From assembly GCF_010015585.1 (NCBI RefSeq), contig NW_022985067.1:2288044-2352043 (forward strand): a stretch of 64,000 bases of DNA. The letters are read 5' to 3'. The notes below the pieces were generated by a model. The model saw nothing but the letters and a program-made list of their open reading frames with translations, searched no databases and was not told the DNA's origin. Positions 4,759-56,764 of this stretch are shown here, piece after piece. The position numbers and the translations under genes are program-made. Positions within the stretch are counted from its first letter, which is position 1. Each line of letters begins with the position of its first letter. Source of the DNA: Eremomyces bilateralis CBS 781.70 (lineage: Eukaryota; Ascomycota; Dothideomycetes; Eremomycetales; Eremomycetaceae).

Positions 4759-5069
4759 TTGGAGGATGTTTCGAAATGGTCGGGGGACGTGAACGATGAT
4801 TCGAGCTCAACCGGAGACTGTAGGACTGTACGATTTGATTTTAGGTCGTTGGTGCAATAATGTAGCTCATGCCACAATCATAATGCTTAATAAAATGTAC
4901 GATATAAACAACGCTTCAAGGTACTATATACAATCATCCCTGAACGAACGCTAGACACCCGTGATGTCCACAAATCCAAGTGCATGCGTAAGATCGTCAG
5001 AAGTTCGTGGCCCAGATGGCCTATATACTCTAGTATGTCTATTCCAGACTCAGAACCTAGTCGCTGAGT
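4759..5069. other. Convergent intergenic region
   Basis: Tail-to-tail spacer of about 310 bp between fmp52 and the MFS transporter gene. It is AT-rich around 4850-4930, which suits 3' UTR and polyadenylation signals of both genes. No ORF. Confidence 0.5.
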
Positions 5070-6938
5070 TCAGGAGTTAGCCAGAAGCTCGTCGTTTTCC
5101 CTGTAATCGTCATCATGATACTCTTCTTGCTCGGGGAGATACACTACACATATTCAATTAGTCCCATGTATTTCATCATTCAGGATACTCAAGACTCACC
5201 GTTCGGTCTGATGAATAAAGCGCACGCGAACGCCAAAAAGAACGTCGCGGTCAGACATATAAACACCGTTGGAGAATACTTCCCCACCGTTGCACTATAG
5301 ATGCCGTTGAAGATCGTCGGACTGATCACTCTTGCCAGAGCATGCAACAGTCCCAGCGCTCCAAGCAATTGCCCCGTCTTATCTGGTGGGACATGCTTCG
5401 TCAAGACGCTCTGCAACGTCGGCGCCCCCATACCGCCAAAGCTCGCGACGATGCCGCTGAGGGTGAACAGCTTCCCATCCCTGGCAAAGCTGTATCCCAG
5501 AAATCCTAGGGTGTCAATCATGACCGCCACACGGATGATGTTCAATTCGAAAGTGTCCGAACCACTCCGCGACACGTGGGTAGTGCCCGTGAGCCACCTG
5601 CGGCCGTAGCCGTTGAGCAGTGGAAGGATGACGAGCAACCCGAAGACGCGGCAGGTGTTGACGATGGAGATGAACAAGGACTGCGTGTATGTGTCCCAGC
5701 CGAACATGAAGTTGCTATAAATGACGATGATCTGGAAGGCTCCCATGGCGACGCCGAACCCAAGGGTATCAACGGCGGCAAGCACGAGGAGGTTGCTACG
5801 GAGCGCGGAAGAGGATCCGGGGCCAGTTGGGTAGAGGATGCGGAGGGGTTCGAAGAAGTTGGCGGGGCGGAGGGAGGAGAGAAAGGAGGGAGGCCCGGAG
5901 GCGAGGTGTTTGACGCGGTATTTTTCCCGCGCGAGCAGCTGGCGGGATTTGCTGAGGGACTCGGGGATAACGAAGGCGAGTAAGGCGATGAAGAGAATGT
6001 GTGCCGCGATGCCGTAGTAGAAGACCGGCAGGACGGTCCCGGTCTTCTTGACGATGTAGCCTGCAACGATGGGTCCGATAGCAATTCCCGTGAAAAGGCA
6101 GCCATGGAAGTATCCAAACGCCACGTTCCGCTTCGATGGAGGCGTACAGTCCGTTGCATACGAATGCGCAAGAGCCATGGACGTGATGAACGAGCCGCAC
6201 ATTCCATCGAAGACGAACCCAACTAGAATCCAATATACGGAGATGATATCGGGATATTTGGCGGCAAATATAGTAATAATCTCGCCGCTGAACATCCCGA
6301 AGTTCGTGAGCACGATGATCAGCTTCCGCCCGTATCGGTCGGACAGTGCGCCCAGTTTCGGGCTCACAAGAGCTGCGAGGAGGCCCGAGATAACGGTTCC
6401 TGCAAGGTTGAATTGTGCAACACGCGATTGCACCCCCGCGTCACGGCACTGCTCGTTCTCTTCTCCAAAGACGACCGGGAGGTATGTGAAGGTAGGGTCG
6501 GCCAACGCTTGGTCGGCGAAATATTCTCGACAGATCAGGGTAAGGATGAGGTTCAATTTCGGGACCATGACACCGCCAAATGCCATCGTGGATAGGAGGT
6601 ATGGAGGAAGCATCCAGAATATCTGCAGCGGTCAACGTCTATGCGTTTGATCTGTTGGATCGTATACTCACGGATGGTTTCTTGTACCATGGCAAGCCAT
6701 CGAAATCTCCGCGCTCTTCAGACTCTTCCCCCAGCAGTGTTGTAGAAGTCGTTTTCCTTATCAGAGGCGTCTCCTCGTCTGTATCCTGCACCTGTTTGGA
6801 ACCCATGACTCCTCCCTCGGCCGCCGGAACAATGTCCTCTTCTTGCAGCGTGATATCGCCGGTACTTCCACTTCGAGTATTGGATGCGCCGACCACCTCG
6901 TCGGCGCCCAGCCATGCTGGCTGTCGTTCGGCGCTCAT
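5070..6938 (-). CDS. MFS transporter, DHA1/TetA-like (YCR023C type)
   Basis: Three exons on the minus strand: 6672-6938, 5200-6622 and 5070-5143; 587 aa. The first 89 residues are a cytosolic tail with a PLIRK segment. The membrane domain starts with MAFGGVMVPKLNLI and carries the MFS loop signature GALSDRYGRK after TM2, with about 12 hydrophobic segments overall. The frame runs into a stop at 5189 only if the last intron (donor at 5199, acceptor at 5144, 56 nt) is not removed. Splicing gives an acidic tail ending in DELLANS, a dileucine-type sorting signal. The start at 6938 is preferred because an in-frame extension to 7082 would translate the GATA-site repeat. Substrate unknown; see the regulatory sites at 6981-7013. 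Confidence 0.9.
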
Positions 6939-14921: not shown

Positions 14922-15180
14922 ATGACTTCGTGGACACTGTCAGTGAACCTTCCTGTTCCTATAATAGCAGGCATGTCCGCTGGCGTTCCCCAACATAGGA
15001 ATAACAGTATGTATTTCAAACAGGTATCGATATCAGAGTATAGACGGCGTACCGATCTTCCACCCGGGTACCCAGACAGAATGTCCTGACTCAGGAGCCA
15101 AACACCAGCCTCCTCAACGGGCCAAGTCTACGAGATCGTCTACATCGAGGAACACGTTGAGAAATCGGCGATCCCAAAGC

Positions 15181-16356
15181 ATGGATGTCTCGAGAACCCA
15201 CGCCGTTTCTATCGCGAGTTCCTCATCAACACAGAGCGTCAACGTCCTACCTCCGCCGGCGCCATTCTTTGTCCGGAATGGACGGCGGTATCCGCGCGAT
15301 CGCCCGAATCCACTGCCATGCGACTTGGCCGAGCTTCAGCGGCAGAACTTGCGAACCATGCTGGTCTCTTCGGTTTTGGGGAAGCCAATTTGCTGCCCAC
15401 CGCGATTCCTTCCGAAGACACATCAACTGCGAATCCTGGACATCGGATGCGGTACGGGTTATTGGAGCTATTTGATACACCAGCACCTCGTCTCCTCTGG
15501 ATGGAAAGCGCCGTCATTCATCGGCCTTGACACGGCCCAGTCCGCGCCGGATCTTGGCAAGCAAGGCATGGACTGGAGATTCGTGGCGCACGATCTTCGC
15601 CGTCCGTTGCCGTTTTCCGACTCCCAATTCGACTTAGTAATCATGAAGGACATGTCGTTAGTCACCCCCGTCGGTGAAGGCACGCAGCAACTCCTCGACG
15701 AAACTATCCGCGTCCTCAAGCGCGGCGGCGCGTTGGAGATTTGGGAATGTGACCACGCGATCCGGTGCCTTCAACTGGACCACTCCGCTTCGTTCTCTCG
15801 TACCAGCGAGGAGGAGCTCACGCAAGCGAAGAAAACCGCGACGTATCCCATCAACTCGGCAACAGTTTTCGGGGAGCCACAGAACACATATCTCCACCAA
15901 GCCAGCGCTTGGATCGAAAATATCTTGGACGCGCGAGGGCTCTCGGCAACGCCCGGATCGCGAATGACAGCCGCCCTTCTCCAAGAGCCGGACGATCTCT
16001 GCGAGATAGGGTTCCGGCGCGTGGCCGTGCCGTTGACGGAAACGAGATGGGAGCGAGAATCCGGTATCGACTGGGAATCGAAGATATTCCCAGACCAAGA
16101 GCAACCCACCAAGGACCAAGGAGATGAAGTGCAGAGTGTCTTGACGGACGAACAAGCCGCACTGCGAGCCACGGCGTTGATGACGGTGGTGCAGATACTG
16201 GAAGGGCTGGAGCCGCTGCTTACGGATCTTAGCCGAAAGAACGCGGAGGAATGGGCGCGGTGGTGGTCGGGGATGAAGGGAAATCTCCTGCAGGGACGCG
16301 GTGCGGAACATGGGGAATGTCTGGAGATTGGGGCTTGGTGGGCCAGGAAGCGATGA
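15181..16356 (+). CDS. Class I SAM-dependent methyltransferase
   Basis: From ATG 15181 the ORF encodes 391 aa. Motif I is ILDIGCGTG (about 85-93), followed by an acidic motif II (FIGLDTA). Motif III-IV lies around FSDSQFDLVIMKDM, and ETIRVLKRGGALEIWE is the usual post-IV strand of fungal small-molecule or protein methyltransferases. Substrate unknown. Upstream, the same frame stays open to 15044. An exon at 14922-15006 (starting MTSWTLSVNL) would join it in phase, through an intron of only 37 nt (15007-15043) or an in-phase acceptor at 15094. The real N-terminus may therefore lie at 14922. There are no biosynthetic neighbours, so a secondary-metabolite role is not supported. Confidence 0.85.
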   Translation: MDVSRTHAVSIASSSSTQSVNVLPPPAPFFVRNGRRYPRDRPNPLPCDLAELQRQNLRTMLVSSVLGKPICCPPRFLPKTHQLRILDIGCGTGYWSYLIHQHLVSSGWKAPSFIGLDTAQSAPDLGKQGMDWRFVAHDLRRPLPFSDSQFDLVIMKDMSLVTPVGEGTQQLLDETIRVLKRGGALEIWECDHAIRCLQLDHSASFSRTSEEELTQAKKTATYPINSATVFGEPQNTYLHQASAWIENILDARGLSATPGSRMTAALLQEPDDLCEIGFRRVAVPLTETRWERESGIDWESKIFPDQEQPTKDQGDEVQSVLTDEQAALRATALMTVVQILEGLEPLLTDLSRKNAEEWARWWSGMKGNLLQGRGAEHGECLEIGAWWARKR

Positions 16357-17201: not shown

Positions 17202-18369
17202 ATGAAGTCTCTCCTGCAGCTCCGAGCCATACCGCCAGTCCTTGCCTCACCCCTCCCCCGCCAACCTGTCCCCCTTTATATCAATGGTTTATCTAGCGCT
17301 CAGAACTCTTTAAATATATTAAGGCCTTTGACCACGTCCTCACCAAATCGTTCTTCCGCTCCCTCCCCAGCCGAATCCCAGGCGTTGACCGCTCACCATC
17401 CGCGATGGCTCTCCGCGCTCAAGGAACGGATAGGAACGTGCATCTGCTTCGGCATGAACACGGCGCAGGTAGGCGAGGCATCCGAGATACTAAAAGAGCT
17501 GAGTCGGGATTGGCGGGAACTGGTGGCTGGGAGTGAAGGGTATTTGACGGCGGAGGATCGGAGAGGGCTGTGGAGGCATCGGGTGGTGTGGGGAGAGATG
17601 GTATGTTGAGATTCCGATTGATGGAGTTGGTTCAAGCCGTGTTAATGTTTGATTAGGACAGTATGGTAAGTCGCGTCGACTACAGCATATATCTCCTGGA
17701 CTACTGACCAACTGAAGGGTATGTATTCATAGCATCTGAGATTGGGCATCCGAGATTCCTTACTGGTACTCTAGGCCATGTGAACAACGTGATGTATACC
17801 AGGTATGCCGAATCCGCCCGAATAGAATGGGCGCAGAAGATCGCAACTTTTGTCGACCCTGCCCATGGCGATGAATGGAGAGAGCTGTGGACGCCGCGAA
17901 GTGTAGGCTTGATATTACGGAGTATCAAGACAGACTACAAATTTGTATGTGTTCCGAAGCCCCATTCGCAACTTTAGCGACGAGGTGCGATATATGGATT
18001 GTTGATATTAACCTGTGGCAGCCTATGACATATCCCGACCATGTTACTGTCCTTCACAAGCTCCGCAACGCACCGGATGGGCGAATGGACCATTTCATCC
18101 TCGACGTGATCATCCTCTCCGAGCTGCATCAACGGCCCGCGGCACGCTGCGTGGAGGACATCGTGGTATATGACTACCAGCAGGGGAAGAAGGTGCCGCT
18201 GAAGCCGTTCATGGTTGATATGTTCCACGAGACGTTCCGACTGCAGGAAGCAGCTAAGAAGTCGAACGGCGAAAATATCAGGAGACTTCATGAGCGGGTG
18301 GAGGTGCTGGAGAAGGAAACGTGGGATAGACCGGATGCGAAAGAAGATCTCGGGTCTGCTGCTCCATGA
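17202..18369 (+). CDS. Mitochondrial hotdog-fold thioesterase with a one-nucleotide exon
   Basis: Proposed exons: 17202-17600, 17657-17665 (9 nt), 17718 (1 nt), 17775-17944 and 18022-18369; 308 aa. Residues 1-60 are Arg/Ser/Pro-rich with few acidic residues, fitting a mitochondrial presequence. The hotdog active-site segment WGEMDSMGHVNNVMYTRYAE is built from four exons: the first ends in GEM, the 9-nt exon supplies DSM, a lone G plus GC gives Gly137, then HVNN follows. Without the single G the frame fails, and the four larger exons sum to 926 nt. The family (4HBT-like) hydrolyses acyl-CoA or acyl-ACP. It shares a divergent promoter with ETFRF1, which regulates acyl-CoA oxidation. Confidence 0.85.
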
Positions 18370-43600: not shown

Positions 43601-45710
43601 ATTTCCGGATCGATGTACCCGTCACGTTCCTTGATATTGAAGAAGTTGAAGGCTTGGGTGACATCGTCATCGTCGATCTCGGCCGTGACGAATGCCATGA
43701 GGGCATCGGAGTGTCGCCGCTCTGCTATGATTTTGAGAGCATGTCGGGCGCGGGTTACCTCTCGATCAGCTTCCCCCTTGCGGTCCTTTCGTATTGTTAG
43801 TTCAAGAACAATCAAAATCACGTGGGTGTTTTACGCATATCGTGAGTAGAGGATTATGTGCATTGTTCGCGGCGAAATAGCCAGAAGGTTGGAAGAATAA
43901 TCAGGAATATGACTTACCTCACTGCTATCTCTGGTCTTCACCTTGGTTTGATACGCCACCTGAATAAACTCATCGCTATAGGAATCATCAGCCTCTAAAA
44001 ACCGAAGGCAGGCTTCGTAGGTATCCAACAACTCTAAACACCGTGAGCAACAACCTAAGCACAAAGGACTAAAACACATACCATCCGAACTGTCAGAGAG
44101 GCATTGAAGGTCAAAGACATGGGCAAGGATCTTTCTCATCTCCCTCATATCCATCCTGGTCCTTTCACCAACGTCTTGGTAGCGAACGTTGTAGTGATTG
44201 AGGATTTGTTCTCCCGTGAGGGTGGGGCCTTTCTGAGGATCGATACCGAGACAACGAAAAGCGTTGTCGATAGTCTTGCGATCATATACCCCTCGTGAGT
44301 CTGCGAGTGCCACCTCCACGGAAAGGGCTTCACTTCCACGACCTTGGGCAATTCCCCGTAAACAATCAAGGTAATAAGCGTGGTCGAGTTTGTCAAAGAA
44401 TGACTGCGTTTTCCATGCGAAAAGAATCAAGTTGTCAGAGAAGTCGGCGACGGCACCGAGTGAAGCGTAATGTCTAGGTGAAGTGTAAGCGACACATGCG
44501 ATGTAAACGAACCCCTAAGTGCGGAAACTCACGGATGGTCTTCCTCGTCGGATCGTGTTGAACGTGTTGCCCTCGCCCCTGGCTTTTTCTCGTCTGAACA
44601 AACGTTAGAACGCACACAGCGTTGAGGGTATGCCAACGATTACTCACATCCTGCACAGCTCAGAATGCTCTCTATACTAGAGACTGCATTGACCTTTGTG
44701 ACAAGCGGATAAATCTCCATTCTTGACGCAACCTCTTCCCTTTCATGAGGTTTACAGTCCCAAAGAACAATGCCGAGTTCCTGATAGACATCCTGCAGGT
44801 ATGTACGCTTGTCCGGTCTTCTCCATACATCCTCACTGTCAGTAGGAATCGGTGGGATCCACCTCCCAAGCCCATCCGGATGGTCTTCTGCCGTGGGGGT
44901 AAACCCAAGTCGATGCAGGAATGTCTGAGTATCCGTTCCAAACAAGGCCAAGAACGTCTTATGGGTGAACGGGATTGTCCTCGGCAACCAGTCCGGATTT
45001 AGAGCATTGCCAATATACACCCGAAGGGTGGCAAGAACCATAGCTGGGATCGGTTGTGGTTTTACATCTCTATGCTCCTTCAGAACGGCCCGATGTCTTG
45101 CGTCTAGCCGATCTCCGTCCATGAGGAGCCGATAATCCTCAGGCAGAATTGCTGGTGGACGGGACAACACCTTCAGAACCATTTGGCACTGCTCGAACTG
45201 GCATATAAAGTCGAAAGTCGAGGAGGACGGCGTTCTCGGATCCGCAGTGAGGTCGGTGGGATCAATATATTCCCCATGCGATATGCCACGGCAAGCGAAA
45301 TGGTGCAACGGCTCCCCTTTCCCAGTCCCACATGGCTGTCCTACACCTTGACGTTTATGCTGGACAAACAAGTCAAAATGGTATCTGCACCGAGAACATA
45401 TCGTCGCGACCTTCAGTCTGGTGCCTTCCTCCCATGCGACCGTATCTGTGTTTGGCAGGACGCTTTCATCCGCTTTGAGGATGAGAATATGGGAACAGCT
45501 CCCCTGAGGGATCGCTGGTTTCCGAGTACTCGCCTGGGGATCGAATCGGTGGGGCAAAGAAGCCAAAATATTCCGCTCGGCTCGCTCCTCCAACCTTGGA
45601 TCATAACGGAGAAGATCTTCGAGTATCCGGGGGGAAGTCTTTCCCGCTGTGAGAACATGAGTATATGCGGCCCTGTGGATTGTTTTTTAGATTCGCCTAC
45701 CGGTACTCAT
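40667..45710 (-). CDS. ubp2: UBP2, ubiquitin-specific protease
   Basis: Seven exons on the minus strand: a 10-nt first exon 45701-45710 (MSTA start), then 44648-45646, 44533-44593, 44082-44473, 43918-44033, 41056-43785 and 40667-40792. They sum to 4434 nt, giving 1477 aa. The start of the fifth intron's 3' exon could also be 43776. The N-terminal 500 residues hold the UBP2-specific region (RILEDLLRYDPRLEER, CSRCRYHFDL). The USP Cys box is GLRNIGNTCYLASVLQFL (Cys654). The His box is GGAHGGHYWINI (His1259), with WRKYND following. Long Pro/Glu/Lys-rich insertions separate the two boxes. The last exon adds an acidic tail (SSDDTMDMGDDLASIHS). In yeast Ubp2 works with Rsp5 and Rup1, trimming K63-linked chains in membrane-protein sorting. 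Confidence 0.94.
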
Positions 45711-55151: not shown

Positions 55152-56764
55152 ATGGCCCACGCCTTTCAAATACGCGGTGAACGATTCCATATCCCTCTGG
55201 ACTCCGATGACGAGGAAGATCCCGTCCCTTCGCCGCCCGTCAAGCAGGCCGTCGGCTTTTCATTCGTGAACGATGTCCTAGAACGTTCGTCAACCACCCC
55301 GAAAGCGCCCGCGCCTCCGACGGTCAAGAACGCGGCGGGGTTTCCGGCGCATAGGAAACGGAATCGCACGTCGGCGTTTAAGAAGGCTCGCGGTCATGGT
55401 GATGGGACTGCGGCGACGACGCAGTCGACAATACCAGAACGGAGTGATAGGGTGGCGGAGAAGGGAGTTGCAAAACCAGAGAAGATACTGTCGGAGAGAG
55501 AGCGGATCGATCGGGATAATCAGCAACGGATAGCGCAGATGTCGCCCGAAGAAATCGAGGCAGAGCGGCGAGAGTTGTTCGCAGGGTTGAGTCCCGCGCT
55601 CGTTCAACGACTGCTTCAACGCTCGACGATTGACGACGAACCTCCGCCAGCGCAAGACTTAGAGACAGGTACAGATGACCTAGAAGCGTCAGAGGATCCA
55701 CCAACGACGTTGCAGGGCAAAAATGTCGCATTCGAAACGAACGACACGATCATTCCGTCTACTCACTCGACAGAACACAATCAAACCGACCCTCCCCACG
55801 ACCGACCCACTCCGAAACCTCTATCCACACCCACCCCACAACCTCACGATCCAGAAACGATNNNNNNNNNNNNNNNNNNNNNNNNNNNNNNNNNNNNNNN
55901 NNNNNNNNNNNNNNNNNNNNNNNNNNNNNNNNNNNNNNNNNNNNNNNNNNNNNNNNNNNNNNNNNNNNNNNNNNNNNNNNNNNNNNNNNNNNNNNNCTTC
56001 CCGCACCCCCTCCCTCATCCATCTCCTGGCTCCAGCCCCTCCCCTCCGACCCCTCCACCTACTCCCCCTCCAACCCCTCCCTCTCCCTCACCTCCCTCCG
56101 TTTCTCCTTCTCCGGCGCCCTTCTCCCCCCCAAAACCGCCTTCCTCCTCCCCTCCAACCTCGGCCTCCACCACCACGGCGACGCCCCCGACGCCGCCGGA
56201 TACACCATCCCCGAGCTAGCGCTGCTCGCAAGAAGTAGCTATCCGGCGCAGCGGTGCGTCGCGTATCGGAGTCTAGGCGCGCTGTTGGGGCGGTTGGGGC
56301 GGGGAGAGTTCGGGGTGTTGGATGGAGTGGATCTAGTAGGCGCAGGGGGAAAAGGGCCATTGGAGGGGGTGCCCGGGCAGATTCCGGGACCGGAGCGGGA
56401 AGAGTCACAGGAGGAGGGGGATGAGGAGGAGCAGATCAACGAAGCGGACCGGGTGAAGGTGCTCGGACAGGATGGGAAAGTGTATGAAGGGGTGGACGAG
56501 GCGCGGAAGCTGGCGAGAGGGTTGTGGACCGTGATGACGCGAGAGCGGGTGCTGGAGACGATTAAGGAGGAGGTGGCGAGGGAGAGCGGACATCGGAGTG
56601 CGAGGGAGTATGCGCGGGAGGCGCTGGAGGCGTGGGAGGGGGGGTTGAGGGAGGGAAAGGGCAGTGGGAGGAGGAAAGTGATTAGGGAGGAGGAGGCGGA
56701 GGTGCGGGTTGTGAGGAGAGATATGGTTGATAAGAAGGTGGATCAGGCGACGGAGGGTGGATAG
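55152..56764 (+). CDS. rpap1: RPAP1 (RBA50), RNA polymerase II assembly factor, split by an assembly gap
   Basis: The N-terminal part (55152 to the gap at 55862) has MAHAFQIRGERFHIPLDSDD and the RPAP1-N helix (SERERIDRDNQQRIAQMSPE, then LFAGLSPALVQRLLQR). After the gap, from 55997, the RPAP1-C domain appears in another frame: LRFSFSGALLPP, YTIPELALLARSSYPAQRCV, AYRSLGALLGRLGRGEFG. The tail is charged. The 135 Ns are a multiple of three, yet the frame differs on the two sides, so the gap length is only an estimate or an intron lies inside. The factor links RNA polymerase II to assembly chaperones and the GPN-loop GTPases. Confidence 0.85.
55862..55996. other. Assembly gap (135 N)
   Basis: A run of 135 undetermined bases inside the RPAP1 coding region, flanked by C-rich low-complexity coding sequence. 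Confidence 0.99.

Follow-up and report, generated by a model that had tools for sequence, protein, structure and literature searches.

A predicted single-nucleotide exon in a thioesterase-like gene of Eremomyces bilateralis

Position 17718 of the window (the whole 64,000-nucleotide stretch of Eremomyces bilateralis DNA analyzed here) is likely a single-nucleotide exon of a 4HBT_2 gene, predicted from sequence to be spliced as in Table 1 and to encode a hotdog-fold, thioesterase-like protein. A one-nucleotide exon was the reading of the original prediction. It is supported by the splice structures that preserve a conserved protein motif, by the spacing of that motif in homologues, by the fit of the spliced protein to Pfam and PDB matches, and by the choice of introns made by a gene finder.

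Table 1. Predicted parts of the thioesterase-like gene, in window positions.
Feature	Position	Strand	Observation
Whole gene, thioesterase-like, ATG to TGA	17202-18369	+	Exons of 399, 9, 1, 170 and 348 nt
Exon 1, 399 nt, ..VVWGEM ending at a codon boundary	17202-17600	+	Open frame; start codon tentative
Intron 1, 56 nt, GTATGT..TTAG, branch-like GTTAAT	17601-17656	+	Splice score 5.29
Exon 2, 9-nt microexon GACAGTATG, Asp-Ser-Met	17657-17665	+	Homologue alignment
Intron 2, 52 nt, GTAAGT..ACTGAC..GAAG	17666-17717	+	Splice score 5.46; branch distance 10
Exon 3, single nucleotide G, first base of Gly codon G-GC	17718	+	Sole AG-N-GT site in 17666-17774
Intron 3, 56 nt, GTATGT..CTAG, weak branch CCTTAC	17719-17774	+	Splice score 0.37
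Exon 4, 170 nt, GC-CAT-GTG.., (G)HVNNVMYTRYAESARIEW..	17775-17944	+	4HBT_2 match alone, 29.9 bits
Intron 4, 77 nt, GTATGT..GCAG	17945-18021	+	In-frame join of exons 4 and 5; splice score -1.88
Exon 5, 348 nt, ending in TGA	18022-18369	+	4HBT_2 C-terminal half, 28.7 bits

Gene layout and the need for one base

The predicted exons require one base between introns 2 and 3. Read from the sequence, the five exons sum to 927 nt and stay open for 308 codons plus the stop. Without 17718, the remaining four come to 926 nt and the frame gives DSM-AM-stop. The sequence right after the acceptor of intron 3 is GCCATGTG, so that exon 4 opens with two bases of the residue between M and H. One further base is needed both for the frame and for the conserved spacing of the protein. 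The original prediction had the 9-nt exon supplying DSM, the other exons totaling 926 nt, and 308 codons open once 17718 is included; its coordinates, motifs and sums are reproduced here.

In homologues, DSM and HVNN are separated by exactly one residue. This spacing is seen in all four PDB alignments displayed, of eight matches, and in five of five bacterial loci. WGEMDSMGHVNN aligns without gaps to PDB entries 5byu, 5dio, 3qy3 and 2fuj (the four displayed of the eight matches). In these alignments, the residues of exon 2 stand without gaps against DAL, AAL, DSY and DSM, and the 3′ end of exon 1 matches the upstream flank of the motif. All five bacterial loci read VVWGEMDSM[QR]HVNN, with DSM at the place of exon 2; they were found partly by the peptide VWGEMDSM, and the independent part of this agreement is the M-x-HVNN spacing only. 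The residue that follows DSM is G in the four displayed PDB alignments, and Q or R in all five bacterial loci. Because this residue need not be glycine in homologues, any base at 17718 would suffice for length (xGC). Thus, the earlier claim that one extra G is needed stands as regards one base, and is too strict as regards G.

The only canonical source of this base is 17718, as had been proposed. We enumerated the structures that stay open and in frame, allowing GT and GC donors, AG acceptors only, and no more than four introns, each 30-250 nt long. This yielded 22,205 open canonical structures, 47 of which give DSMxHVNN, and every one of the 47 uses 17718 as a 1-nt exon. Within 17666-17774, AG-N-GT or AG-N-GC occurs once. 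The longer motif WGEMDSMxHVNN is retained in three structures, two of which do so with an additional intron upstream, 33 or 36 nt long.

Introns 2 and 3 are of the usual size and carry the usual signals. For comparison, a simple gene finder was trained on 264 kb, made up of the window and a further 200 kb from its contig; the target gene was excluded from coding and splice training, while the background composition included it. The 145 predicted introns have a median length of 57 nt and a 95th percentile of 124.6 nt, and their acceptors are CAG (74), TAG (60), AAG (8) and GAG (3). The two flanking introns, at 52 and 56 nt, compare closely with this median. Both lengths, and the branch-like ctgac of intron 2, had been predicted and were found in place. 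The block AAG-G-GTATGT (17715-17724) sets an AG directly before the single base and a GT directly after it. Intron 2 ends in an AAG acceptor, a type seen in just 8 of the 145 predicted introns, and has a good branch site, ACTGAC, whose A lies 10 nt from the intron end; the commonest branch distances among predicted introns are 10 and 11. Intron 3 has good ends and a weak branch, and its splice score is close to the 5th percentile of predicted introns (0.22).

The spliced protein belongs to the 4HBT_2 family. At full length it scores 85.8 bits on Pfam 4HBT_2 (PF13279; curated cut-off 25.5) over profile positions 1-119 of 122, and no other Pfam family scores above its cut-off for this protein. 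The match to TIGR00051 (the NCBIfam YbgC/FadM acyl-CoA thioesterase family) reaches 30.9 bits, below the cut-off of 68.7. Judged from its sequence, the product is a predicted hotdog-fold, thioesterase-like protein, presumably expressed and enzymatically active. A search of the organism's own genome found no second copy, the three matches being exons of the target gene itself. No comparable motif was found in the other 4HBT or 4HBT_2 matches, using a loose pattern in three forward frames at 11 loci, some of them overlapping. Prokaryote contigs supplied the five bacterial homologues; among viral contigs there was a single pattern match, and no relative. The neighboring predicted gene on the plus strand (14973-16356) is methyltransferase-like (Pfam Methyltransf_25, 49.3 bits).

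Chance signals and the loss of a base

The rival explanation that survives best, which we nevertheless regard as unlikely, is that an exon edge has lost a base, either through an assembly error or through a mutation that turned the gene into a pseudogene. Positions 17666-17774 would then form a single ordinary intron of 109 nt, with splice signals inside it that are due to chance. An intron of this length is long here yet possible, being shorter than the 95th percentile of the predicted introns. A loss is conceivable at the start of exon 4, where two G stand side by side (ctaGGcc). Furthermore, the assembly (26.6 Mb) consists of 62 contigs, and the window has one run of 135 N (55862-55996), probably a scaffold gap.

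Signals as good as those observed rarely arise by chance. When the intron interior was shuffled with dinucleotides preserved, some AG-N-GT split with two introns of at least 42 nt appeared in 978 of 20,000 shuffles, and the observed split score was reached in just 50 of the 20,000. On both strands of the 264 kb, two of 84 AG-N-GT sites with a strong donor pass the observed splice thresholds. The second passing site, AG-T-GT near 5143 (5064-5199, minus strand), has good splice scores on both sides, yet is probably ordinary exon. We set it aside by eye because the sequence past the first acceptor reads open, as an acidic C-terminus, to a stop.

Simulated losses did not produce a single-nucleotide exon. 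We deleted single bases computationally at one edge or the other of introns at least 85 nt long. The finder responded with an invented tiny exon twice in 60 trials (8 nt in one, 2 nt in the other), and never with one of 1 nt. These two rescues of the frame speak for the loss of a base. An earlier run of 96 losses gave no tiny exon, but a 1-nt exon could have fitted into just 15 of the introns used. Frame breaks, when allowed at -12 nats, were used nowhere across 106,686 coding bases, with a sensitivity of 76 in 134 simulated interior losses. On these controls, which are limited, the loss of a base is the less likely explanation, yet it is still alive.

Alternative splicing and gene prediction

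Splicing at other canonical sites is far less probable again. One such structure combines introns 17601-17661 and 17666-17732, and has a 4-nt exon, TATG, with 12 more residues in the motif; another skips the 9-nt exon. Splice signals separate the first of these from the 1-nt model by little. When 1,372 GT-AG structures were ranked exhaustively by splice and composition scores alone, the 1-nt model came first by 0.65 nats, with 9.99 against 9.34 for the 4-nt-exon structure. In a hand-picked comparison, the 1-nt model had been ahead by 7.2 nats (14.04 against 6.85), a margin that shrank to 0.65 under the exhaustive ranking. At three of six intron priors (-4, -5 and -6), the 4-nt-exon structure is the winner. 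However, it still needs a tiny exon, and its extra residues break the motif. The best structure without an internal exon shorter than 12 nt scored 1.38.

Homology, rather than splice signals, bears most of the weight for the 1-nt model; splice signals alone are no proof of it. We compared its 4HBT_2 score with those of seven in-frame alternatives drawn from the ranking by splice and composition scores. Over the domain stretches (161-178 amino acids), the 1-nt model reaches 88.1 bits and the seven alternatives 74.7-79.3, an advantage of 8.8-13.4 bits. As whole proteins, three other in-frame alternatives score 76.5, 76.6 and 75.1 bits, against the full-length score given above for the 1-nt model. 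The best PDB match is 44.4 bits for the 1-nt model and 30.0 bits for the top-ranked alternative. The 4-nt-exon structure falls behind by 13.3 Pfam bits (74.8 against 88.1), and by 14.4 bits between best PDB matches.

Gene prediction recovers the introns of the 1-nt model. The finder trained on 264 kb picked exactly these four introns and began the gene at 17454. A finder trained solely on the 200 kb outside the window again gave the four introns, at four of four intron priors, and began the gene at ATG 17598. This leaves one codon of exon 1, which contributed almost nothing to the second prediction. In-frame ATGs at 17454 or 17598 are thus preferred over 17202 by the two self-trained models, and ATG 17202 is a tentative gene start. 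The target gene scores 23.6, under the cut-off of 25 for confident genes. The finder supports the 1-nt model in that the four introns were chosen with the gene left out, whereas the margin is thin in one model.

Among predictions for the 264 kb made with no score threshold (159 genes with 109 internal exons), 17718 is the sole 1-nt exon, and five of the 109 internal exons are 9 nt or shorter (9, 1, 4, 6 and 5 nt). A control sequence, reversed and complemented, yielded 78 predicted genes; their internal exons numbered 12, five of them tiny (0, 0, 3, 3 and 5 nt) and none of 1 nt. The finder is unable to represent a 1-nt exon that forms the middle base of a codon, and these background counts are therefore incomplete. 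Another tiny exon, of 4 nt between introns of 48 and 54 nt, was proposed on the minus strand at 43976-44081, in a gene scoring 170.8; a previous model round gave this gene 171.6 with one fewer intron, and the 4-nt exon may be noise.

The base could in principle come from a nested twin intron (stwintron) or from a non-canonical site, such as the TA-AG or GT-TA ends that a one-base displacement of an intron would create. The introns flanking 17718 lie back to back and span 109 nt including the single base, which resembles fungal stwintrons, and the [D1,2] stwintron of A. niger lipS is likewise 109 nt long (52 + 57; PMC5639578); yet in the [D1,2] type described there the inner intron interrupts the outer donor after its first nucleotide and leaves nothing exonic between the two, whereas the outer donor here (GTATGT, 17719-17724) is uninterrupted, and a one-base shift yields non-canonical ends when read from the sequence, which makes this origin of the base scarcely credible.

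The single-nucleotide exon at 17718 would be joined by intron definition, each intron being recognized across itself. Introns 2 and 3 would then be removed one after another, since a single base separates the intron 2 acceptor from the intron 3 donor, and the two could hardly be engaged together. Intron 2 would probably leave first, as its stronger branch site suggests, and would leave ATG-G-GTATGT with an intact donor. Removal of intron 3 would follow and would join G to GCCATG. Either order keeps the signals intact; we infer both the splicing of the transcripts and its order.

Known single-nucleotide exons and intron shifts

The exon at 17718 is probably a further case of an established and very rare class of one-nucleotide exons. 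The nearest known example is CYP621A of Fusarium, described with 20 orthologues and 18 listed RNA reads, and named in that 2026 report as the first 1-nt exon in a fungal gene (PMC12940212). Both are nuclear genes of filamentous fungi, both have the single base in an AGGGT context, and in both the base completes a Gly codon within a conserved motif. They differ in that the CYP621A exon is the middle base of its Gly codon, while 17718 is the first base, in a thioesterase-like gene, and has a 9-nt exon directly upstream. Moreover, CYP621A is backed by RNA reads and orthologues, whereas 17718 is predicted from genomic sequence.

Single-nucleotide exons have also been described in plants. APC11 has a 1-nt exon, A, in a stretch of 422 nt, shown by cDNA and by constructs with base changes, and its authors favor intron definition with consecutive removal (PMC4674806). 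Like 17718, this exon is a single base between introns and is needed for the frame, in this case in a plant gene. The 1-nt exon of the plant gene VPS55, shown by RNA-seq and RT-PCR, is likewise one base between introns (PMC8831610). The same source reports a rice gene with adjacent microexons of 5 and 12 nt. That gene resembles the present locus in having two microexons in a row, whereas the sizes here are 9 and 1 nt and the gene is of fungal type.

Single exonic bases and closely packed introns occur in other fungal settings as well. The mitochondrial rnl-576 and rnl-577 introns of Ophiostoma and Ceratocystis are separated by a one-nucleotide exon, and relatives keep one intron (PMC12308204). 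The single base between two introns is shared with 17718, whereas those are group II introns in a mitochondrial rRNA gene, and the introns here would be spliceosomal and in a protein gene. Stwintrons share with this locus two U2 introns packed together and their consecutive removal; they differ in that one intron interrupts the splice signal of the other, where the locus of 17718 would have an exonic base between (PMC5639578).

The two introns flanking 17718 interrupt the same codon, after ATG (phase 0) and after ATGG (phase 1). A single-nucleotide intron shift has reportedly been discussed by Fekete et al. in 2017. With two introns so placed around 17718, a single base apart, a descendant that lost either of them would appear to have an intron moved by one base. 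We therefore raise, as a doubtful possibility, that the exon may be a living intermediate of such a shift in a nuclear gene. The mitochondrial rnl-576 and rnl-577 introns, of which some relatives have one only, offer a hint of a parallel to this intron-shift reading.

The literature searched, on single-nucleotide exons, microexons and stwintrons, contained no report of a 1-nt exon in a thioesterase gene. If the reading is true, this would be, within that literature, the second nuclear fungal gene with a 1-nt exon and the first with exons of 9 and 1 nt in a row. One-base exons probe the minimum sequence that the spliceosome requires between introns, and few are in print in the literature searched. 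A second, unrelated nuclear gene with AG-G-GT would point to exons of this kind recurring and being overlooked by annotation. It would also permit testing whether apparent one-base intron shifts between species stem from them.
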